Of a stretch of DNA of 64,000 nt, positions 39,355 to 52,978 are shown in pieces. Source of the DNA: Bacteroidota bacterium (lineage in GTDB: Bacteria > Bacteroidota > Bacteroidia > Sphingobacteriales > Sphingobacteriaceae). Each line of letters opens with the position of its first letter. Positions within the stretch are counted from its first letter, which is position 1. The notes beneath the pieces were generated by a model. The model saw only the letters and a program-made list of their open reading frames with translations, had not been told where the DNA came from and did not search any database. The translations under genes were made by a program, and so were the position numbers. The DNA lies in the NCBI GenBank assembly GCA_013288685.1, contig JABDBM010000002.1:107220-171219 (forward strand), read 5' to 3'.

Positions 39355-41847
39355 ATGATCAAACCAACAATTATTGTAGTTGGCAATGGCATGGTAGGTT
39401 ATAAGTTTTGCGAAAAACTGGTAGCCCGGTCGGCAGACTTCAACATCATTGTTTTTGGCGAAGAACCGCGCCACGCTTATGACAGGGTTCACCTCAGCGA
39501 ATACTTTAACGGAAAATCGGCTGATGATCTTTCTCTTTCAACATTTTCCTGGTATCAGGAACATGATATAACCCTGCACCTTGGGGACCCCATTCAGGAT
39601 ATAAACCGCACTGCCAAAACGGTACATTCATTATCAGGCATTACTTTCCAATACGATTTCCTCGTATTGGCCACCGGCTCTTCGGCATTTGTGCCGGATA
39701 TTCCTGGTGTTGAAAAAGAAGGTGTTTTTGTGTATCGCACTATTGAGGATCTGGAGCTAATGAAAGCTTATGCCCCTAAAGTTAAAACAGGCGCTGTAAT
39801 GGGTGGTGGTTTGCTGGGCCTGGAAGCGGCCAAAGCGTTAATGGACCTGGGCGTTGCCGAAACACATGTAATTGAATTCGCCCCCCGCCTGATGCCCAGG
39901 CAGATTGATTCTGCCGGGAGTGCCATGCTGCAATCCAAACTCAAAGAACTTGGGTTAAGCATTCACTTAAATAAAAGCACTGCTTATATAGGTGGTGGGC
40001 ACAAAATAGAAAACCTGCATTTTACCGACGAAAGTGTGCTGGCTATAGACATGCTGGTAATATCCGCAGGAATAAGGCCGCGCGATGAGCTGGCAAAACT
40101 TTGCGGACTGCAAACGGGCATACGCGGGGGAATTGTTGTTAACGAAAAAATGCAAACCAGCGACAGCTGCGTTTTTGCGATTGGCGAGTGCGCTTTGTAC
40201 GAAGGCATGATATACGGCCTGGTAGCACCCGGCTACGAAATGGCCGATATTGTAGTTAACCAGTTAACTGCAGGCAGCAAACTATTTTACGGCTACGACA
40301 TGAGCACCAAACTAAAACTAATTGGTGTTGATGTGGCCAGCTTTGGCGATGCTTTTGTAACCGAGCCCGATTGCCGCACCATTGTTTTTGAGGATACCCA
40401 CAAAGGCATATATAAACGCATTAATATAAGTACTGATGGTAAGCAATTATTGGGTGGCATTTTAATTGGCGATGCCGATGCCTATAACATGCTGCTGCAA
40501 ACCGTTAATAATAAAATAGTACTTCCGCCTAATCCCGAAGATTTAATATTAGGTGCGCGGGGCGGCGCTGAAAGTGAAGGCACCGGGGTGATGAGCTTGC
40601 CCGACGATGCGCTTATTTGCTCGTGCGAAGCAGTTAATAAAGCTGCCATTTGTTCAACTGTCAGCGATTTGGGCATTACGACTATTGAGGGAATGAAAAA
40701 ATGCACCAAAGCCGGAACCGGCTGCGGCGGCTGTGTTCCTTTAGTTAAGGACCTGATTGCAGGCACCATGAAAGCCAATGGCCAGTATATTAAAAATGTA
40801 ATTTGCGAGCATTTTGAATATTCAAGACAGGAGCTTTTTGATTTAGTAAAGATTGGTCAAATTAAAAACTACGACCTGGTGCTAGATCATTTTGGAAAAG
40901 GGGACGGTTGCGAGGTATGCAAACCTGCCGTGGCCAGTATACTATCCAGCCTGTGGAACGATGTAATTGTTAAGCAGGATACCATACAGGATAGTAACGA
41001 CCGCTTTTTGGCGAACATTCAAAAAGGCGGAACCTATTCGGTAGTGCCACGCATTCCGGGAGGAGAAATCACCCCTGATAAATTAATTGTACTGGGGCAG
41101 GTGGCCAAACGGTACAGATTATATACCAAGATTACCGGCGGACAGCGGATTGACCTGTTCGGCGCGCATCTAAATGATTTGCCTGCCATTTGGGAAGAGT
41201 TAATAGATGCCGGCTTTGAAAGCGGCCACGCCTACGGCAAGGCGCTGCGGACCGTAAAAAGTTGTGTTGGCAGCACCTGGTGCCGGTTTGGCTTGCACGA
41301 CAGTGTATCGTTCGCTATTGAAATTGAAGACAGATATAAGGGCATACGCGCTCCGCATAAAATTAAGGGAGGAGTAAGTGGCTGTGTACGCGAATGCGCC
41401 GAAGCGCAGGCAAAAGACTTTGGAATTATTGCCACCGAAAAAGGTTGGAACCTGTATGTATGCGGTAACGGCGGTTCGAAACCCCAGCATGCCCAGTTGC
41501 TGGCTACTGATATTGATAAAGAAACACTGGTTAAATACCTCGACAGATTCCTGATGTTTTATATAAAAACCGCCGAACCGTTGTCCCGCACCGCAACGTG
41601 GTTAAATAAAATGGATGGTGGCTTAAGTTATTTAAAAAATGTAATCGTGAACGATAGTCTTGGTTTAGGCGCTCAATTGGAAGAAGAAATGCAATCATTA
41701 GTAAACAGCTATCACTGCGAATGGAAAGAGGTTATTGAAGACCCCGCTTTGCGCAAACGATTTACACATTTTATTAATGCGCCCGACGAAAAAGATCCGA
41801 GCGTACAGTTCGAGCCCATGCGGGATCAGGTTAAAGCGAAATGGTAA
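39355..41847 (+). CDS. nirB: Nitrite reductase (NADH) large subunit
   Basis: FAD/NAD domains, BFD [2Fe-2S] (CSCEAVNKAAICS...CTKAGTGCGGC), siroheme/4Fe-4S cysteines (CVGSTWCRFG; CVRECAEA). Confidence 0.96.
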   Translation: MIKPTIIVVGNGMVGYKFCEKLVARSADFNIIVFGEEPRHAYDRVHLSEYFNGKSADDLSLSTFSWYQEHDITLHLGDPIQDINRTAKTVHSLSGITFQYDFLVLATGSSAFVPDIPGVEKEGVFVYRTIEDLELMKAYAPKVKTGAVMGGGLLGLEAAKALMDLGVAETHVIEFAPRLMPRQIDSAGSAMLQSKLKELGLSIHLNKSTAYIGGGHKIENLHFTDESVLAIDMLVISAGIRPRDELAKLCGLQTGIRGGIVVNEKMQTSDSCVFAIGECALYEGMIYGLVAPGYEMADIVVNQLTAGSKLFYGYDMSTKLKLIGVDVASFGDAFVTEPDCRTIVFEDTHKGIYKRINISTDGKQLLGGILIGDADAYNMLLQTVNNKIVLPPNPEDLILGARGGAESEGTGVMSLPDDALICSCEAVNKAAICSTVSDLGITTIEGMKKCTKAGTGCGGCVPLVKDLIAGTMKANGQYIKNVICEHFEYSRQELFDLVKIGQIKNYDLVLDHFGKGDGCEVCKPAVASILSSLWNDVIVKQDTIQDSNDRFLANIQKGGTYSVVPRIPGGEITPDKLIVLGQVAKRYRLYTKITGGQRIDLFGAHLNDLPAIWEELIDAGFESGHAYGKALRTVKSCVGSTWCRFGLHDSVSFAIEIEDRYKGIRAPHKIKGGVSGCVRECAEAQAKDFGIIATEKGWNLYVCGNGGSKPQHAQLLATDIDKETLVKYLDRFLMFYIKTAEPLSRTATWLNKMDGGLSYLKNVIVNDSLGLGAQLEEEMQSLVNSYHCEWKEVIEDPALRKRFTHFINAPDEKDPSVQFEPMRDQVKAKW

Positions 41848-41867
41848 TATTAAAAAGATCAGAAAAA

Positions 41868-42224
41868 ATGGAAACAATTATTACAACAGCAATTGATTGG
41901 GTTTTGGCTTGTTATGCCGATGATGTACCTGCAAATGGGGGCGCCTGTGTTAAACTAAGGAATGAACAAATTGCGGTTTACAATTTCGCCCGCCGGGGTG
42001 AATGGTATGCAACCCAAAATTTATGCCCGCACAAACAGCAAATGGTTTTATCGAGAGGTATGATTGGCAGCGCCGGCGAAACATGCGAACCAAAGGTGGC
42101 CTGCCCCTTTCACAAAAATACTTTTTCCCTTTTAAGCGGGCAATGTTTAACTAATGAAGAATTATCCATCAAAACCTTCCCGGTAATGGTAGACAATGGG
42201 AAAGTTTACATTGGTTTTGCCTGA
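41868..42224 (+). CDS. nirD: Nitrite reductase small subunit, Rieske-type
   Basis: CPHKQQMVLSRGMI...CPFHKNTFSLLSGQCL; follows nirB. Confidence 0.92.
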   Translation: METIITTAIDWVLACYADDVPANGGACVKLRNEQIAVYNFARRGEWYATQNLCPHKQQMVLSRGMIGSAGETCEPKVACPFHKNTFSLLSGQCLTNEELSIKTFPVMVDNGKVYIGFA

Positions 42225-42296: not shown

Positions 42297-42330
42297 TCTC
42301 TCCGCCGCCTGGCGGGGAGCTTCGTTTTTT
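42297..42330 (+). terminator. Terminator-like hairpin after nirD
   Basis: CTCTCCGCC-gcct-GGCGGGGAG followed by CTTCGTTTTTT. Confidence 0.7.
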
Positions 42331-43021
42331 ACAATTGTTCATCAGTTAACGCCAAAAGCTTTTCTTCGTCGTTCACAATTATTTTTTTACCTTTTGCCTC
42401 TATAATTTCCTCTTTCAGCATTTCATTTAACACACGGAATACTGTTTCATAGGTGGCACCAGCATAAGATGCCAGATCCTGCCGTGAAAGCTCAATGTTA
42501 ATTGAACCATCGGCTTTTTTTCCGAACTGTTTTTGTAATGAAATTAATGCCTGAGCCACCCTTCCCTTAACTGACATGTGCGCCAGGTTGCGCATCTTCT
42601 TTTCCGATTCTTGTAATTCGCTTGCTAAAAACATCATCAGGTTATATGTAAAATCGGTATTAACCTTTAAGGTCGATTCAAAAAAATCAATATCTACAAA
42701 GCAAATAACACCATCTTCAAGCGCAGTTGCCGAAATGGGATAAACGTTGTTTGGACCAAGGCCCCTATGACCAAAAATAGCGCCACTTGAAGCAAACCGA
42801 ATGATCAGCTCTTTTTCGGGCCCCCATTTTTTGTGAACTTTAACAATCCCTTCGTAAACAAAGTAAACTCCTTTAACCGCATCACCTTCATTAAATATTA
42901 CCTCGCCTTTTCTTACTTTAAAATTCTTTTTATTGGCAGCAATTGCCGGCTGCCACTGCTTTAAACAGTTTTGGCACATAAAACAGCTATTTATATCACA
43001 TTCGCTTTTACTTTTCTTCAT
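42329..43021 (-). CDS. Crp/Fnr family transcriptional regulator
   Basis: cNMP-binding domain plus C-terminal HTH (LSRQDLASYAGATYETVFRVLNEM); N-terminal Cys cluster CDINSCFMCQNCLKQW. Confidence 0.92.
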   Translation of the reverse strand: MKKSKSECDINSCFMCQNCLKQWQPAIAANKKNFKVRKGEVIFNEGDAVKGVYFVYEGIVKVHKKWGPEKELIIRFASSGAIFGHRGLGPNNVYPISATALEDGVICFVDIDFFESTLKVNTDFTYNLMMFLASELQESEKKMRNLAHMSVKGRVAQALISLQKQFGKKADGSINIELSRQDLASYAGATYETVFRVLNEMLKEEIIEAKGKKIIVNDEEKLLALTDEQL

Positions 43022-43522: not shown

Positions 43523-44878
43523 ATGTACAAAAATGTATTAAACCAACGCATTATTGGCATAATTCTATTGTTTTCATCATGTTTAATGACGGTCACGGCG
43601 AAAGCACAGACGTCAAATGAAAATTCAACAGTTAGTTATGCAAATGCTGATCTGAAATCGGGTAAAAAATCAGATCAACCCTCCACCCTACCCGCAACCA
43701 CTACAAAATCAGCCGAAACAGACACCGCCTGGAAACCGACAAGACGGTTATGGGGTTATGCCTTCGGCGATTTTTATTACAATGCACACGCCGATGCTGG
43801 TAACCGCGGGCCAGAGACCAACTATAATGGCGTGCCAACTTACCGAAACGCCTTCCAGTTTCGGCGCATCTATTTGGGGTACGAATACGACATCAACAAA
43901 AAATTTACCGCCGAAGTTTTGCTCGCATCCGAGCCAAGTGCCAATACAGCTGTTTCAGGCACTACAAGCATACCCAACAGCGACAATTTGGCAGATGGCA
44001 AAATGGCCTTCTATATCAAAAACTTCGACCTGCGATGGCATGGCGTTTGGAAGGGAACAGATTTTGTTGTCGGCGAAATGCTTACGCCCGGCTTCCCTAT
44101 GTTAACCGAAAAGATATGGGGCTACCGTGCAATTGAAAGGACCGTCGCCGATTTTCACAGAACCAACGCTTATGATATTGGTGCTTCCCTGCAGGGCGTT
44201 TTTGATCCTGCAACAAAAAACTTCGGTTATAATATATTAATCGCGAATAATAGTAATGGCAGTTCCGCCAGTTTAGGGGCAGCCGCAAATGCCAATACCG
44301 GTTTTTATAAAGCTTTTTACGGCGATGTGTACGCCAAGTTTTTAAACCAAACATTGATTTTCGACTTGTATGCCGATTATATGAAAACCACGCCTGCTAC
44401 GGCAACGGTTGGCGGACAATACCGCAGCATGATCAAAGGGTTTGCAGCCTATACCACACCGAAAATCACCTTCGGACTGGAGGCGTACACACAGAAAATA
44501 GCAAACGCCGTGTCGGACGCCACAACCAAAAGCGCCGCCGATGCAAGGGTTGAGGCAATTTCAGTTTACGCACACGGCGCCATCTATAAAGATAAATGGG
44601 GATTTTTTGCACGCTACGATGGCTACAACCCGGATAACGACTTTAACGCAGCAGATGTTTATACTGCTAACACCAACCTGCCCGCCTACAGTCCCTTTGC
44701 AAAAGAGCATTTTATAACAGCCGGTTTAGATTTTACCCCTGCAAAAAACATTCATTTTATGCCAAATCTGTGGTTCATTCAATATAAAGATCAACGAAAT
44801 CCAACAACGGCAGGGTATTTACCCGATAGCCATGTATTGGTTTACCGGGCAACATTCTTTTACATTTTTGGCAAATAA
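43523..44878 (+). CDS. Outer membrane porin-like protein in nitrate operon
   Basis: Signal peptide, beta-barrel-like alternation, aromatic C-terminus (RATFFYIFGK), position before narK-like gene. Confidence 0.7.
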   Translation: MYKNVLNQRIIGIILLFSSCLMTVTAKAQTSNENSTVSYANADLKSGKKSDQPSTLPATTTKSAETDTAWKPTRRLWGYAFGDFYYNAHADAGNRGPETNYNGVPTYRNAFQFRRIYLGYEYDINKKFTAEVLLASEPSANTAVSGTTSIPNSDNLADGKMAFYIKNFDLRWHGVWKGTDFVVGEMLTPGFPMLTEKIWGYRAIERTVADFHRTNAYDIGASLQGVFDPATKNFGYNILIANNSNGSSASLGAAANANTGFYKAFYGDVYAKFLNQTLIFDLYADYMKTTPATATVGGQYRSMIKGFAAYTTPKITFGLEAYTQKIANAVSDATTKSAADARVEAISVYAHGAIYKDKWGFFARYDGYNPDNDFNAADVYTANTNLPAYSPFAKEHFITAGLDFTPAKNIHFMPNLWFIQYKDQRNPTTAGYLPDSHVLVYRATFFYIFGK

Positions 44879-44895: not shown

Positions 44896-46191
44896 ATGAA
44901 AAATCAATTAACCAAACTCAACATATTTTCAATAAAAGGAGTGCAAATGCGCACCTTCCATATTACCTGGCTCATGTTTTTTGTATGCTTTTTTGGATGG
45001 TTCGGCCTTGCGCCGTTAATGCCAACCATAAGGGGCGAACTTCATTTAACCAAGGGGCAGGTGGGCGATATTATTATCGCATCGGTTACTGCAACCATTA
45101 TAGCCCGGTTAATTATAGGGCGACTTTGCGATACCTGGGGTCCCCGTAAAACGGCTATCCGCTTACTGCTGATAGGTTCGTTGCCGGTATTTTTTGTTGG
45201 CCTTGCGCATAGCTATATGACCTTTCTTTTATTCAGGCTGGCGATAGGTGTTATCGGCGCATCGTTTGTGATCACGCAGTTCCACACCTCTATGATGTTT
45301 GCCCCTAAAATAAAGGGCACAGCCAACGCCGTTACCGGCGGCTGGGGAAATCTCGGCGGTGGGGTAACCAATATGGTTATGCCATTAATCTTCGCGGCTA
45401 TTGTGGGCTTCGGCTATACAAAAGGCGAAGCCTGGCGCTATGCCATGATCGTTCCGGGAGTAATGATGTTAATCATTGCTTTTCTTTATTATAAATACAC
45501 AAAAGATACTCCTGATGGTAACTATGACGAAATAGGATATAATAAAGGAAAATCATCAAAAACCGACTGGTCCGTTTTGGCTGACTGGCGCATTTGGGCA
45601 CTTACAGCTGCTTATGCTATGTGCTTTGGCATGGAAATAACCTTCGATAATGTGGCCTCACTGCACTTTGTAGATAATTTTCATCTTAGCCAAAGTGCGG
45701 CAGGCTTTTGGGCCGGTGCTTTTGGTTTTATGAACCTTTTTGCAAGAGCGCTCGGAGGTATTGTATCCGATAAAGTAGGGGGCAAATTTGGCATGAGAGG
45801 CAAAGGTTTGCTACTTGCGGGTGTTTTATTACTCGAGGGCTGCGGACTGATCTTATTTGCACAGTCAGGCAGTTTGATGATTGCAATCATATCCATGCTG
45901 TCTTTTGCCTTATTCCTTAAGATGTCAAACGGCGCTACCTATGGGATTGTGCCCTTTGTAAATACAAAAAATGTAGGGATGGTGAGCGGCATCGTAGGTG
46001 CTGGGGGCAACCTTGGCGGGATGTTGTTTGGCTTCCTGTTCAAATCATCCACCATCACTTATGTGCAGGCCTTTACTTATATCGGCTACGCGGTGATAGC
46101 TGTAGCCTTAATTGTATTGATCACCAGATTCACAAAAGCGGCCGAAGAAACCGAAAGTATTGAAATGGAGCCGGTATTGGCTGGGGCTTAG
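44896..46191 (+). CDS. Nitrate/nitrite transporter, NarK/NasA MFS family
   Basis: ITWLMFFVCFFGWFGLAPLMPTIRGEL; nitrate signature-like GGWGNLGGGVTNMVMP and GAGGNLGGMLFGF. Confidence 0.95.
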   Translation: MKNQLTKLNIFSIKGVQMRTFHITWLMFFVCFFGWFGLAPLMPTIRGELHLTKGQVGDIIIASVTATIIARLIIGRLCDTWGPRKTAIRLLLIGSLPVFFVGLAHSYMTFLLFRLAIGVIGASFVITQFHTSMMFAPKIKGTANAVTGGWGNLGGGVTNMVMPLIFAAIVGFGYTKGEAWRYAMIVPGVMMLIIAFLYYKYTKDTPDGNYDEIGYNKGKSSKTDWSVLADWRIWALTAAYAMCFGMEITFDNVASLHFVDNFHLSQSAAGFWAGAFGFMNLFARALGGIVSDKVGGKFGMRGKGLLLAGVLLLEGCGLILFAQSGSLMIAIISMLSFALFLKMSNGATYGIVPFVNTKNVGMVSGIVGAGGNLGGMLFGFLFKSSTITYVQAFTYIGYAVIAVALIVLITRFTKAAEETESIEMEPVLAGA

Positions 46192-46212: not shown

Positions 46213-49200
46213 ATGCCCCTAAAAAAGCAGCAAATAAATACATCAACTTCTACCTGCTGTTATTGCGGAGTGGGTTGCGGTGTGCTTGTTCACAAGGATA
46301 AAAGCGGCAATGTTTTGATTGAGGGCGATATGGCGCACCCGGTAAACAAAGGGATGCTTTGTAGCAAAGGTCTTAACCTGCATTACACTGTGAATGATAA
46401 AAGCGACAGGCTGTTATATCCGCAAATGCGATATAACAAAAGCATGCCTATGCAGCGTGTAAGCTGGGACGCCGCCCTTGACCGTAGTGCAGCTGTTTTT
46501 AAAACTTTTATTGATAAATACGGGCCTGACTCGGTGGCGTTTTATGCCTCGGGTCAGTGCCTTACTGAAGAATATTATGTGATCAATAAACTAATGAAAG
46601 GGTTTATTGGTAGCAATAATATCGATACCAACTCGCGCCTATGCATGAGTAGTGCAGTTGCAGCCTATAAAATGGCTCTGGGCGAGGATAGTGTACCTGT
46701 TTGTTACGATGATATTGAACTGGCAGATTGCTTTTATGTAACCGGCGCTAACCCCGCCTGGTGCCATCCTATTTTGTGGAGGCGGGTAGAGGCGCATAAG
46801 GCCGCCAATCCGGATATAAAAATAATCATTGTTGACCCCCGGGTTACCGACAGTTGCGGCATTGCCGATTTGCACCTCCAGCTTAATCCGGGCACCGATA
46901 TTACCCTAAATCATGCCATTGGCCGTGTATTGATAGAAAACGGCGATATTGATTTAGATTTTGTGCCCCACCATGCCGAAGGCTTTGAGCAATACAGCAA
47001 AATAGTATTTCAAAAAAGCCTGGCTGAAGCAGCAGAAATTTGTGGTGTAAATGAGGAAAATATCCGCCTGGCGGCAAAATATATCGCCGAAGCAAAAGGT
47101 TTTATTTCGATGTGGACCATGGGGCTTAATCAAAGTTCGGTTGGTGTAAACAAAAACCTCAGTTTGATCAACCTTAATTTAATCACCGGGCATATTGGCA
47201 AACCTGGTTCGGGCCCCCTATCGTTAACAGGTCAGCCCAACGCCATGGGCGGCCGAGAAGTTGGCGGGCTGGCCAATTTGTTGCCAGCTCATCGCGATTT
47301 AAGCAATCCCCTGCACCGCGCCGAAGTACAAAAGTTTTGGGGTGGAGTAGCCATCAACCCCAAACCCGGATTAACTGCTACTGAAATGTTCGAGGCGTTG
47401 GATAACGGTAGTTTAAAAGCAATATGGATACTTTGCACCAACCCCTTAACCAGCTTGCCTAATGTACGGCTGGCCGAAGCAGCTTTAAAGAAAGCTAAAT
47501 TTGTGGTGGTGCAGGAGATTAGCAATAAGCCCGAAAGCCTGGCTTATGCCGATGTTATATTGCCCGCAGCGGCCTGGGCCGAAAAGGAAGGAACGATGAC
47601 GAATTCTGAACGGCGCATAAGTTACCTTAATAAAATAGTTGAAGCGCCAGGTGAAGCCTTGCCGGATGCCGAGATCATTTGCCGCTTTGCCAAAAAAATG
47701 GGTTACAAGGGGTTTGATTTTGAAAACCCTGCAGCCATTTATGCAGAACACGCCCGCTTAACCACAAAAACCAATATTGATATCAGTGGATTGAGTTATG
47801 CTATCCTCAAGGAAAAAGGAACCGTACAATGGCCCTATACCAGGAAAAAAGCGGAAAGCACCGCGAGGTTATTTACCGACAAGCGTTTTTATACCCCATC
47901 AAAAAAAGCAATTATACATGCTGTTCCTGACGCCAACGGCGGTGAAAAACCAGATAACGATTTTCCATTCATCTTAACCACGGGCCGTATCCGCGATCAG
48001 TGGCATACCATGAGTAAAACCGGGAAGGTAAATAAACTAAACCAGCATTATTCACAATCATTTATAGAAATACATCCGGCGGATGCCACAACACTCGGGA
48101 TATGTGAAGGAGACATTACGGTAATCAATTCCCGGAGGGGCGAGGTGCAGGTGAAAGCCAAAATATCATCCCAAATAAAACAAGGCGTTGTTTTTTTACC
48201 CATGCATTGGGGCAAAATATTGGGCAACGACCTTAACCGCGTAAACAACCTTACATCGGACCGGGTTGACCCCATTTCGAAAGAGCCCGATTTTAAATAC
48301 TGTGCGGTAAGCGTAGTTAAATATAAAAAGCCATTTCAGCGCATCGTTGTAATTGGGGCGGGCGCCGGTGCTTACGGTTTTGTAAAATCGTACCGCGAAA
48401 TTAATCCCGATGACGAAATAACCATCTTCAGCAAAGAAAACTTCCCATTTTATAACCGCGTAATGCTACCGGATTATATCAGCGGCGAGCAAAAATGGGA
48501 ACAACTGGTAAAAATGAGCGATGAGGACGAACCAGGCTACCATATTAGTTTATTGCGCGGCGTAAGTGTTGAGAAAATTGACCGCGCCAATAAACAAGTA
48601 ACCGACTCGCGGGGGATAAAAACCAATTATGATGTTTTATTGATTGCTACCGGCAGCAGGGCCTCCATTCCTAAAAACGTACCAGCACTGCCTGGTATAT
48701 TCAGTATGCGGAGCCGTACAGATGCTGATAATTTTAAAAAACACGTCCCGCTTGACGGGCATGTGGTAATTGTTGGCGGCGGACTGCTTGGCCTCGAGAT
48801 GGCAGCTTCTTTACGGGAAATGGGTATAAAAATCACTATCGTCCAGCGAACATCGAAGTTTTTAAACCGGCAGCTGGATGATTTGGGTAGCAGGTTATTG
48901 CACGAGGAAATGGTTGACCAGGGCTGCGACATTTTTTATGACGATGAAGTGCAATTGTATTACGGACGCTCGAAACTAACTGGCATAGGTTTAAAAAGCG
49001 GTCGTAAAATTAACTGTGATGCCATGATATTGGCTATTGGCACCACACCAAACCTTGAATTGGCCAAAGATTGTGGGCTCGACTGTCGCCGCGGTGTTAC
49101 CGTAAACGAGCGCCTGCAAACCAGTGACCCGGCCATTTATGCTATCGGCGAAATAGCCGAATTTAAAGGCACATTGTATGGTATTACTGCCGCCGCCGAA

Positions 49201-49728
49201 CAACAGGCCCAGGTAGTTGCCAACTACATGAACGGGGATATTGCCAGTTATTATAAAGGCAGTTTGTTTATGAATATCATAAAAATCCATGGTTTTGATC
49301 TTTGCAGTATAGGGATACCCGAATGCCCCGATGAGAAAGATTACGAAGAAGTAGTATTTATTGATAAGGCCAAACGATATTATAAAAAATGCATCATCCA
49401 CCAGGACAGGTTGGTTGGCGCAATACTGATAGGCGACAAAAGTGAGTTCCTTGAATTTAGGGATCTGATTGCCAATAAAACCGAACTAAGTGAAAAGAGA
49501 CTTCAACTGTTACGCAGCGGCAACACGGCCGACCCTGTTTTGGGCAAGTTAGTGTGTAGCTGCAATAACGTGGGGGCCGGGAATATCCACAAGAAAATAG
49601 AATCGGGCTGCGATACCATGCCGGCGTTATGTGCCGCCACCGGTGCGGGCACAGGCTGCGGTTCGTGCAGGCCCGAGGTAAAGCGGTTGCTGGATGAAGC
49701 ATTAAAAAACATGGCTATTGTAAATTAA
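46213..49728 (+). CDS. Fused assimilatory nitrate reductase: molybdopterin catalytic domain + FAD/NAD(P) oxidoreductase + BFD-like [2Fe-2S]
   Basis: N-term CCYCGVGCGVLVH...GMLCSKG (4Fe-4S/MGD), MGD-binding FILTTGRIRDQWHTMSKTG, then IVVIGAGAGAYGFVKSYREINPDDEITIFSKE (FAD) and C-term CSCNNVGAGNIHKKI...CAATGAGTGCGSCRPEV. Confidence 0.93.
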   Translation: MPLKKQQINTSTSTCCYCGVGCGVLVHKDKSGNVLIEGDMAHPVNKGMLCSKGLNLHYTVNDKSDRLLYPQMRYNKSMPMQRVSWDAALDRSAAVFKTFIDKYGPDSVAFYASGQCLTEEYYVINKLMKGFIGSNNIDTNSRLCMSSAVAAYKMALGEDSVPVCYDDIELADCFYVTGANPAWCHPILWRRVEAHKAANPDIKIIIVDPRVTDSCGIADLHLQLNPGTDITLNHAIGRVLIENGDIDLDFVPHHAEGFEQYSKIVFQKSLAEAAEICGVNEENIRLAAKYIAEAKGFISMWTMGLNQSSVGVNKNLSLINLNLITGHIGKPGSGPLSLTGQPNAMGGREVGGLANLLPAHRDLSNPLHRAEVQKFWGGVAINPKPGLTATEMFEALDNGSLKAIWILCTNPLTSLPNVRLAEAALKKAKFVVVQEISNKPESLAYADVILPAAAWAEKEGTMTNSERRISYLNKIVEAPGEALPDAEIICRFAKKMGYKGFDFENPAAIYAEHARLTTKTNIDISGLSYAILKEKGTVQWPYTRKKAESTARLFTDKRFYTPSKKAIIHAVPDANGGEKPDNDFPFILTTGRIRDQWHTMSKTGKVNKLNQHYSQSFIEIHPADATTLGICEGDITVINSRRGEVQVKAKISSQIKQGVVFLPMHWGKILGNDLNRVNNLTSDRVDPISKEPDFKYCAVSVVKYKKPFQRIVVIGAGAGAYGFVKSYREINPDDEITIFSKENFPFYNRVMLPDYISGEQKWEQLVKMSDEDEPGYHISLLRGVSVEKIDRANKQVTDSRGIKTNYDVLLIATGSRASIPKNVPALPGIFSMRSRTDADNFKKHVPLDGHVVIVGGGLLGLEMAASLREMGIKITIVQRTSKFLNRQLDDLGSRLLHEEMVDQGCDIFYDDEVQLYYGRSKLTGIGLKSGRKINCDAMILAIGTTPNLELAKDCGLDCRRGVTVNERLQTSDPAIYAIGEIAEFKGTLYGITAAAEQQAQVVANYMNGDIASYYKGSLFMNIIKIHGFDLCSIGIPECPDEKDYEEVVFIDKAKRYYKKCIIHQDRLVGAILIGDKSEFLEFRDLIANKTELSEKRLQLLRSGNTADPVLGKLVCSCNNVGAGNIHKKIESGCDTMPALCAATGAGTGCGSCRPEVKRLLDEALKNMAIVN

Positions 49729-49731
49729 TTT

Positions 49732-51189
49732 ATGGCACAAGGTATAACTCATTTAATTAAAATAAACCTTCCGGGAGGCTTTGTGTCAGCCGGTGATTTG
49801 TATGAAATACTACTGATTGCCGAGAATGCAGGCGCACGGGATATCCGTTTTGGCAACAGGCAGCAACTATATTTCGCAATAGAGGAAAATTGCCTGGAGG
49901 ACCTCGAAAACGAAATGCTCCGGACCGAAATTCAGTACGAAACTGACGCTGATTTGTATCCCAATATTGTAAGTTCTTATGTGGCCGATACTATTTTTAA
50001 CCAGGAAGGCTGGCTGCGCGAGGGTGTTTATAAAGATATTATAGACGCATTTGATTTTCAACCCCGGCTAAAAATCAACGTGGTTGACAATCAGCAATCA
50101 TTTGTTCCATTTTTTAGCGGAAACATCAATTTCATCGCTTCCGATATAAGTAATTATTGGTTTATGCATGTTCGTTTTCCAAAATCAGGAACGCATCACT
50201 GCTGTCCGTCGTTGTTTTATTCGGATGATATCCCATTAATTGCAAAAACTGTTGAGGAAATCATTTTGGAGAATAAAAAACTTTTTTACGATCAGAAAAA
50301 AGCGGATGAACAACTATTTTTTAAAATGCTTGCTAAAAAAGCAAGTGCCGCATCTCAACAATCAAAAGCTGCTTTAAAATTGCCCGATTTTCAGCTTCCC
50401 TATTACGAGGGTTTCAATAAATACAATAACCGTTATTGGTTGGGGATTTACCGCCGTAATGAGCTTTTCCCCCTCGGTTTTTTAAAAGATGTTTGCTTAC
50501 TATGCCTTAAAACAAGGATTGGGCAGATATACACCACACCATGGAAATCAATTATCATTAAGGGTATTGAAACCACCAACCGGAACGAATGGGGTTTGAT
50601 ATTAAGTAAATACCACCTTAATGTAAGGCATGCGGCGAATGAGCTAAACTGGCAGATTGAGGACATTTGCGACGAAGGTTTAGCCTTAAAACAGCAATTA
50701 GTTCGCGAGTTTGAAGAAGCCGATTTGCGCACCTACCAGCTTTGTTTTGCCATTAAAACACAGCCAAAAACGGGGTTGTCAGGATCTATTATCATAAAAA
50801 AGAATAAAGAAGATCTGTACGATTTGTTGCATACCAAAGATTTTAACCCCAACTCGAAAGATTATGTACCTTATTTGCAAGGGGTAACGACAACCGGATT
50901 GAGCAAACATTTGGTCACCCTTTGCAATGATTTTTATAACAAGCAAAGCAACGATATCATAAAAAGCAAAGTCGATTTTAATGAGGAAGCCACAGCTGAA
51001 AGCGCAGAAACAGAAATTTATCAGTGCAACTGCTGTTTAACCCGGTATGATAAAGCTTATGGCGACAGCATTAATGATATTGAAAAAAACGTTGACTTCA
51101 AAACGTTAAGTCATTATAACTGCCCGGTTTGCGACGCGCCAATGGATGATTTTAGTTTGCTAAATGAAAATCTTTACACAAACAATTAA
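49732..51189 (+). CDS. NiR/SiR half-domain protein with C-terminal rubredoxin domain
   Basis: N-term ferredoxin-like half domain (GGFVSAGDLYEILLIAENAGARDIRFGNRQQLYFAI); C-term CNCCLTRYDKAYGD...YNCPVCDAPMDDF rubredoxin CxxC...CxxC; 3 bp after the nitrate reductase. Confidence 0.85.
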   Translation: MAQGITHLIKINLPGGFVSAGDLYEILLIAENAGARDIRFGNRQQLYFAIEENCLEDLENEMLRTEIQYETDADLYPNIVSSYVADTIFNQEGWLREGVYKDIIDAFDFQPRLKINVVDNQQSFVPFFSGNINFIASDISNYWFMHVRFPKSGTHHCCPSLFYSDDIPLIAKTVEEIILENKKLFYDQKKADEQLFFKMLAKKASAASQQSKAALKLPDFQLPYYEGFNKYNNRYWLGIYRRNELFPLGFLKDVCLLCLKTRIGQIYTTPWKSIIIKGIETTNRNEWGLILSKYHLNVRHAANELNWQIEDICDEGLALKQQLVREFEEADLRTYQLCFAIKTQPKTGLSGSIIIKKNKEDLYDLLHTKDFNPNSKDYVPYLQGVTTTGLSKHLVTLCNDFYNKQSNDIIKSKVDFNEEATAESAETEIYQCNCCLTRYDKAYGDSINDIEKNVDFKTLSHYNCPVCDAPMDDFSLLNENLYTNN

Positions 51190-52910: not shown

Positions 52911-52978
52911 TCACGAATTAATCGAATTTCACGAATTTTAAATCACAAGATAATTCGTGAAATTCGATTAATTCGTGA
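52911..52978. repeat. Perfect 27-bp inverted repeat between convergent genes
   Basis: TCACGAATTAATCGAATTTCACGAATT (52911-52937) / AATTCGTGAAATTCGATTAATTCGTGA (52952-52978). Confidence 0.9.

Follow-up and report, generated by a model that had tools for sequence, protein, structure and literature searches.

CobG, the precorrin-3B synthase of the sulfite reductase (SiR) superfamily, carries a 4Fe-4S cluster, and Bacillus NasB is a possible precedent for a degenerate nitrite reductase (NiR)-like domain in an electron-transfer subunit. In Paracoccus, the Rieske carrier NasG is encoded with the assimilatory nitrate reductase and was proposed as the relay from the NADH-flavin side to molybdenum (PMC5424462). 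NasN of Mycobacterium smegmatis, a single-chain NADPH-dependent assimilatory nitrate reductase, is described as monomeric in the sections of the source cited here (PMC7816997).

The window analyzed here is a stretch of 64,000 nucleotides from a Bacteroidota bacterium, and it encodes a nitrate cluster with a fused NADH-nitrate reductase, NasA (Table 1). The name RSR was coined in this study for the product of the gene directly after nasA and for its relatives. We consider, with a probability of roughly 55%, that the fused NADH-nitrate reductase of the Bacteroidia type has in RSR an obligate accessory subunit, which combines docking with a rubredoxin electron relay.

Table 1. Features of RSR and of the surrounding nitrate cluster (positions are those of the window)
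Feature	Position	Strand	Basis
NirB, genuine siroheme nitrite reductase large subunit	39355..41847	+	Pfam/NCBIfam; co-occurs with NasA and RSR
NirD, Rieske-type nitrite reductase small subunit	41841..42224	+	TIGR02378
NarK-family nitrate/nitrite transporter	44896..46191	+	TIGR00886 subfamily, 300.9 bits, just below the cut-off of 311.7
NasA, fused NADH-nitrate reductase, putative RSR partner	46213..49728	+	Pfam/NCBIfam, co-occurrence, adjacency
RSR, rubredoxin-tailed sulfite/nitrite-reductase-fold protein, 485 aa	49732..51189	+	ORF, family of at least 585 GTDB loci, purifying selection
RSR body, predicted complete two-half SiR/NiR fold, residues 1-410 (approximate end), without 4Fe-4S/siroheme Cys	49732..50961	+	AlphaFold2 and Foldseek, hhalign, Cys columns
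RSR NIR_SIR_ferr half domain 1, residues 7-62, including R43-Q44	49750..49917	+	Pfam, conservation, hhalign
RSR second half, residues 222-400: TPWK motif, C258, C255, R299-H300	50395..50931	+	Residue conservation; hhalign of half 2 alone weak
RSR variable flexible linker, residues 401-428	50932..51015	+	Low pLDDT, low identity
RSR C-terminal rubredoxin domain, residues 429-478, Cys4 = C432, C435, C464, C467	51016..51165	+	Pfam, Cys4 conservation, Foldseek

The RSR reading frame starts with ATG and lies 3 bp behind the stop of the fused nitrate reductase gene (49728), as the preliminary description of this DNA had stated. Pfam detected NIR_SIR_ferr at residues 7-62 (33.7 bits, cut-off 24) and Rubredoxin at residues 430-474 (30.7 bits, cut-off 23). 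The latter displayed the knuckles C432-N-C-C435 and C464-P-V-C467, which confirmed the C-terminal rubredoxin previously read from CNCC...CPVC. No Pfam match to the 4Fe-4S/siroheme domain NIR_SIR was found in RSR, whereas NirB of the same window matched both NIR_SIR_ferr and NIR_SIR and carried CVGSTWC...CVREC, in agreement with the earlier observation that Cx5C...Cx3C is present in NirB and missing from the N-terminal half domain of RSR. Profile searches with Pfam and NCBIfam also gave no match to a Rieske 2Fe-2S domain in RSR; NirD is the product of a separate gene. The linker showed 11-46% identity to the nearest relatives, and its pLDDT was below 50 at residues 410-425.

Relatives spanning most of RSR were identified in 23 of 297 genomes sampled across the phylum. 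A scan of GTDB yielded at least 585 RSR loci, and the best 80 of these, which were kept, belonged mainly to Mucilaginibacter, Pedobacter, Sphingobacterium, Hymenobacter, Niastella and their kin. RSR is labeled "rubredoxin" on Hymenobacter and Spirosoma plasmid records, and literature searches retrieved no publication on it. RSR is thus a conserved Bacteroidota family known to databases only under this name, and the suspicion that it was under-described was borne out: it is a real, conserved component that is apparently undescribed. Among 20 relatives, NIR_SIR_ferr was matched by all and Rubredoxin by 19 (best 1.2e-16), far exceeding chance.

The rubredoxin Cys4 was retained in all 102 domain-bearing members among 103 RSR sequences. 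However, conserved cysteines at the 4Fe-4S/siroheme positions were found in none of the 103, and both the residue columns and hhalign indicated that all four usual NiR/SiR cysteine positions are lost. Other positions of the body were near-invariant, namely R43, C258, W271 and H300 (102/103 each), Q44 and K114 (101/103 each) and N116 (103/103), while C255 was present in 94/103. A conserved second metal site at C255xxC258 was considered and weakened, with Ala, Gly or Ser replacing C255 in nine members. The pN/pS values were about 0.16-0.24 for the body against 0.20-0.34 for the rubredoxin domain, which points to tighter constraint on the SiR-like body than on the rubredoxin and leaves room for an additional role of the body, for instance as an anion site or in assembly. 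A decaying pseudogene was ruled out by the more than 100 conserved relatives and by purifying selection. Of the "degenerate scaffold" proposed before, the loss of the cofactor cysteines stands, but the body shows no decay: its conservation exceeds that of the rubredoxin, and it keeps R43. In one RSR member, L023 / L118 (G190), which lies next to an intact fused NasA, little more than a tight pair of CxxC knuckles is left of the rubredoxin; this protein keeps the four Cys without the rubredoxin loop and has lost the Pfam Rubredoxin match.

AlphaFold2 models were obtained for the window RSR (pLDDT 84.7, pTM 0.68) and for a distant relative, L013 (pLDDT 85.7, pTM 0.78; built from 53 sequences), the two having different query members. 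The PDB structures closest to the RSR body were SiRHP and NirA (Foldseek, E about 1e-16). Both halves of the L013 model superposed jointly on NirA (1zj8) with a TM of 0.64 and an rmsd of 4.9 Å over 457 columns, and its TM to SiRHP (1aop) was 0.66. Since the window model superposed poorly as a whole chain (rmsd about 17 Å), the relative placement of the domains was taken from the L013 model. The tail matched rubredoxin structures with a TM(target) of 0.84-0.93, whereas a viral fold library gave no significant match for RSR.

The whole body also aligned with a mixed NirA/SiR profile (hhalign, global E 1.7e-11), placing R43 on the siroheme/anion Arg of NirA, the Arg in TTRxN. Smaller profiles gave weaker scores, above all for the second half; thus, the sequence support is good for half 1, and half 2 is based mainly on the models. 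Together, these data predict for RSR a complete sulfite/nitrite-reductase fold of two halves, spanning residue 1 to about residue 410. A single half domain was ruled out by AlphaFold2 and Foldseek, so that the half domain named in the preliminary description was correct in locating NIR_SIR_ferr at residues 7-62 and too narrow for the body as a whole. The AlphaFold check on RSR alone that had been set beforehand returned the SiR/NiR-fold body with the rubredoxin tail. To our knowledge, the ferredoxin-like half domain of NiR/SiR never carries the Cx5C...Cx3C cysteines. Their absence from that half of RSR is therefore uninformative by itself, and it is the absence at residues of about 220-400, in the second half, that counts. 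As for an origin from NirA specifically, group-wise hhalign comparisons with NirA, SiR and NirB were similarly weak, and NCBIfam leaned slightly to CobG.

Fused NasA was detected in 20 and RSR in 21 of 395 Bacteroidia genomes, and all 20 NasA genomes have RSR. The additional RSR (G126) is located at a contig start, truncated and without rubredoxin, in a genome without fused NasA and NirB. Of the 80 nearest loci, 79 had RSR downstream of NasA in the same orientation, and so did all 12 more distant loci; the median gap was 7 bp and the maximum 1.2 kb (78 measured loci). The sole exception among the 80 was Pinibacter, where NasA is on another contig. Co-inheritance (20/20) and co-encoding (79/80), both looked for in a NasG-like nitrate reductase relay, were thus found, and the tie to the fused nitrate reductase proposed earlier held. 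A single-chain fusion of RSR and NasA was sought as well and did not occur in the sampled genomes, where the open frames reached up to 571 aa.

NirB occurred in exactly the same 20 of 395 Bacteroidia genomes as fused NasA, and co-occurrence by itself therefore cannot tell NasA from NirB as the partner. NasA is favored because of its position and co-divergence. The mirror-tree correlation of RSR and NasA distances was 0.85-0.91, a value that genetic linkage alone can raise, and the partial correlation was 0.76-0.79 given NarK or NirD (0.76 given NirD). With NasA controlled for, RSR and NirD gave a partial correlation of 0.09. The divergence of RSR thus appears to follow NasA and not NirD. Both the RSR-NasA partnership and the loss of cofactor ligands in RSR are well supported.

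Five genomes of other classes (L125, L126, L127, L128 and L129) encode fused NasA without RSR. In all five, a NirA with both halves (two NIR_SIR matches) is encoded close to NasA, and no siroheme protein of NirB size was found in any of them. Pfam identified flavodoxin and FNR-like reductases in L125 and L126; in L127 it identified an FNR-like reductase. In our samples, fused NasA therefore pairs either with catalytic NirA or with RSR plus NirB, and in these five genomes nitrate assimilation is wired differently around this fused enzyme. This points to RSR as a possible descendant of, or replacement for, a NirA-like partner of NasA.

Within the window, NasA consists of an Fe4S4 and Mo-bisMGD part (residues 1-703), a NirB/NorW-like FAD module with Rubredoxin_C (about 710-1090) and a BFD [2Fe-2S] domain (1113-1162). 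The FAD module matched the NorW profile with 166 bits, and its near structures include the NirB-family reductase 3klj and the putative rubredoxin reductase 3fg2; it groups with NirB, NorW and putative rubredoxin reductases. NasA residue 116 (46558-46560) is Cys in 28 of 29 RSR-associated NasA and Leu in all four compared NasA without RSR. The NarK-family gene upstream of NasA is conserved among relatives. A Crp/Fnr-family regulator with a Cys-rich N-terminus, CDINSCFMCQNC, is encoded inside the cluster (42329-43021, minus strand), holds the same place in many relatives and is possibly a redox or NO sensor. Between it and NarK lies a putative outer-membrane porin-like protein (43523-44878, plus strand) that has no convincing family match and has close relatives at the same position in L035 and L038. 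Further downstream, a perfect 27-nt inverted repeat with a 14-nt loop (52911-52978) directly follows an MFS gene, and a REP-like dispersed palindrome of 25 nt, CCCCTCTCTAC..CGTAGAGAGGGG, is present in five copies (53861, 53909, 57114, 57244 and 57292) within larger repeats of 75-105 nt.

An NiR shape without cluster cysteines, a rubredoxin tail and the constant company of NasA make RSR probably a dedicated electron-feeding partner. RSR would be a pseudo-enzyme of the SiR/NiR fold, in which the 4Fe-4S/siroheme ligands were lost and the fold was kept as a body that may dock on NasA. Its rubredoxin, on a flexible C-terminal arm and presumably holding iron rather than zinc, could accept electrons from the NADH-reduced FAD module of NasA and pass them to the molybdenum half. 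The simplest path would be NADH to the FAD/[2Fe-2S] of NasA, to the rubredoxin of RSR, to the 4Fe-4S/Mo of NasA, and the direction of flow is likewise a proposal. NasG, the Rieske protein that connects NasB with NasC in Paracoccus, would be the counterpart of RSR in this role (PMC5424462). However, NasA has its own FAD and [2Fe-2S], and the five genomes of other classes run it without RSR; a relay is thus chemically non-obligatory for this enzyme type. The relay is also countered by a rubredoxin domain whose rate of evolution equals or exceeds that of the SiR-like body, by the short CxxC knuckle pair of L023 and by the equally strict co-occurrence of NirB.

The complete internal NADH-FAD-[2Fe-2S] path of NasA, the more conserved body of RSR and the four Cys that L023 keeps without a rubredoxin loop would equally fit a purely structural, maturation or regulatory subunit of NasA, whose Cys4 holds zinc or senses redox and carries no turnover electrons. 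We regard this as unlikely, given the good matches of most RSR members to true rubredoxin profiles (19/20 for Pfam and 19/20 for flavorubredoxin) and the rubredoxin-reductase-type FAD module in NasA. It is improbable that RSR handles substrate or product, with an emptied siroheme pocket keeping its anion site and binding nitrite/nitrate or passing it between NasA and NirBD: the half-2 TxxQN motif is altered to TPWKS, the rubredoxin is left unexplained, and RSR and NirD do not diverge together after correction for NasA. This idea draws on R43 (102/103) aligned with the NirA pocket Arg, on K114 and N116 placed, in an uncertain register, at the NiR PRK-x-N motif, on the co-inheritance of NasA, NirB and RSR, and on the position of fused NasA, which adjoins RSR or NirA in all examined genomes except for one unlinked RSR. 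A combined model, in which the cofactor-less NiR fold was kept as a NasA subunit in the place of NirA, acquired a rubredoxin for electron supply and still has an anion pocket that binds nitrite or hands it to NirBD, seems quite unlikely.

Two further explanations were considered. Each of the 32 intact-RSR genomes searched contained a siroheme protein of the NirB type (about 830-860 aa), and 31 of them contained a distinct SiR-like protein as well (about 550-750 aa); the window's own assembly, which is 71% complete, yielded NirB and no SiR-like protein. The presence of NirB in every such genome would allow RSR to donate electrons to NirBD or another acceptor instead of NasA, but RSR adjoins NasA, in many loci NirB is several kb away, on a different contig or encoded on the other strand, and the partial correlation with NirD is about 0.09, which makes such a donor very improbable. 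That RSR is itself still a reductase that binds siroheme or a tetrapyrrole through unusual ligands (C258 or H300, for example) is hardly credible. Its complete fold and conserved pocket Arg, the retention of these two residues in 102/103 members each and a weak CobG profile similarity in 11 of 20 members would fit such an enzyme, but all four usual Cys positions are gone and a separate siroheme NirB accompanies it in 32/32 genomes. RSR is thus apparently no nitrite reductase of the usual kind, as the preliminary description had concluded, with the cluster cysteines absent, a genuine NirB elsewhere and mostly an SiR too.

If the relay is real, RSR would represent a siroheme-reductase-fold pseudo-enzyme turned electron-transfer subunit, and it raises the question whether an NADH-nitrate reductase that looks complete in itself depends on a rubredoxin from outside. 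Nitrate assimilation in Bacteroidota, which are abundant in soil and sea, seems to include RSR, and because of its strict co-inheritance with NasA it can be used as a marker for this nitrate reductase.

Compared with described systems, RSR resembles NirA, CysI/SiRHP and plant NiR in its predicted two-half fold (TM about 0.64-0.66), NIR_SIR_ferr and pocket Arg, but differs from them in lacking the 4Fe-4S/siroheme Cys and an NIR_SIR match and in carrying a C-terminal rubredoxin. CobG profiles matched 11 of 20 RSR members weakly (best 8.3e-6) and the window RSR not at all, and the context of CobG is cobalamin while that of RSR is nitrate. The flavorubredoxin NorV shares with RSR a C-terminal rubredoxin on a large body, and NorW, the NADH reductase paired with NorV, is of the family to which the NasA FAD module belongs. 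However, the NorV body is a flavodiiron NO reductase and the RSR body an SiR fold; the flavodiiron core is absent from RSR, and profile searches limited the likeness to the rubredoxin (residues 410-478). NasN shows that single-chain nitrate reductases can be self-sufficient, and an RSR-like partner is not mentioned in the sections of that source cited here (PMC7816997). In the NasB-NasG-NasC system of Paracoccus, NasG, like RSR, is a one-electron carrier candidate encoded with an assimilatory nitrate reductase. NasG is a Rieske 2Fe-2S protein, whereas RSR is a predicted Fe(Cys)4 rubredoxin on an SiR-fold body whose partner is the fused NasA.
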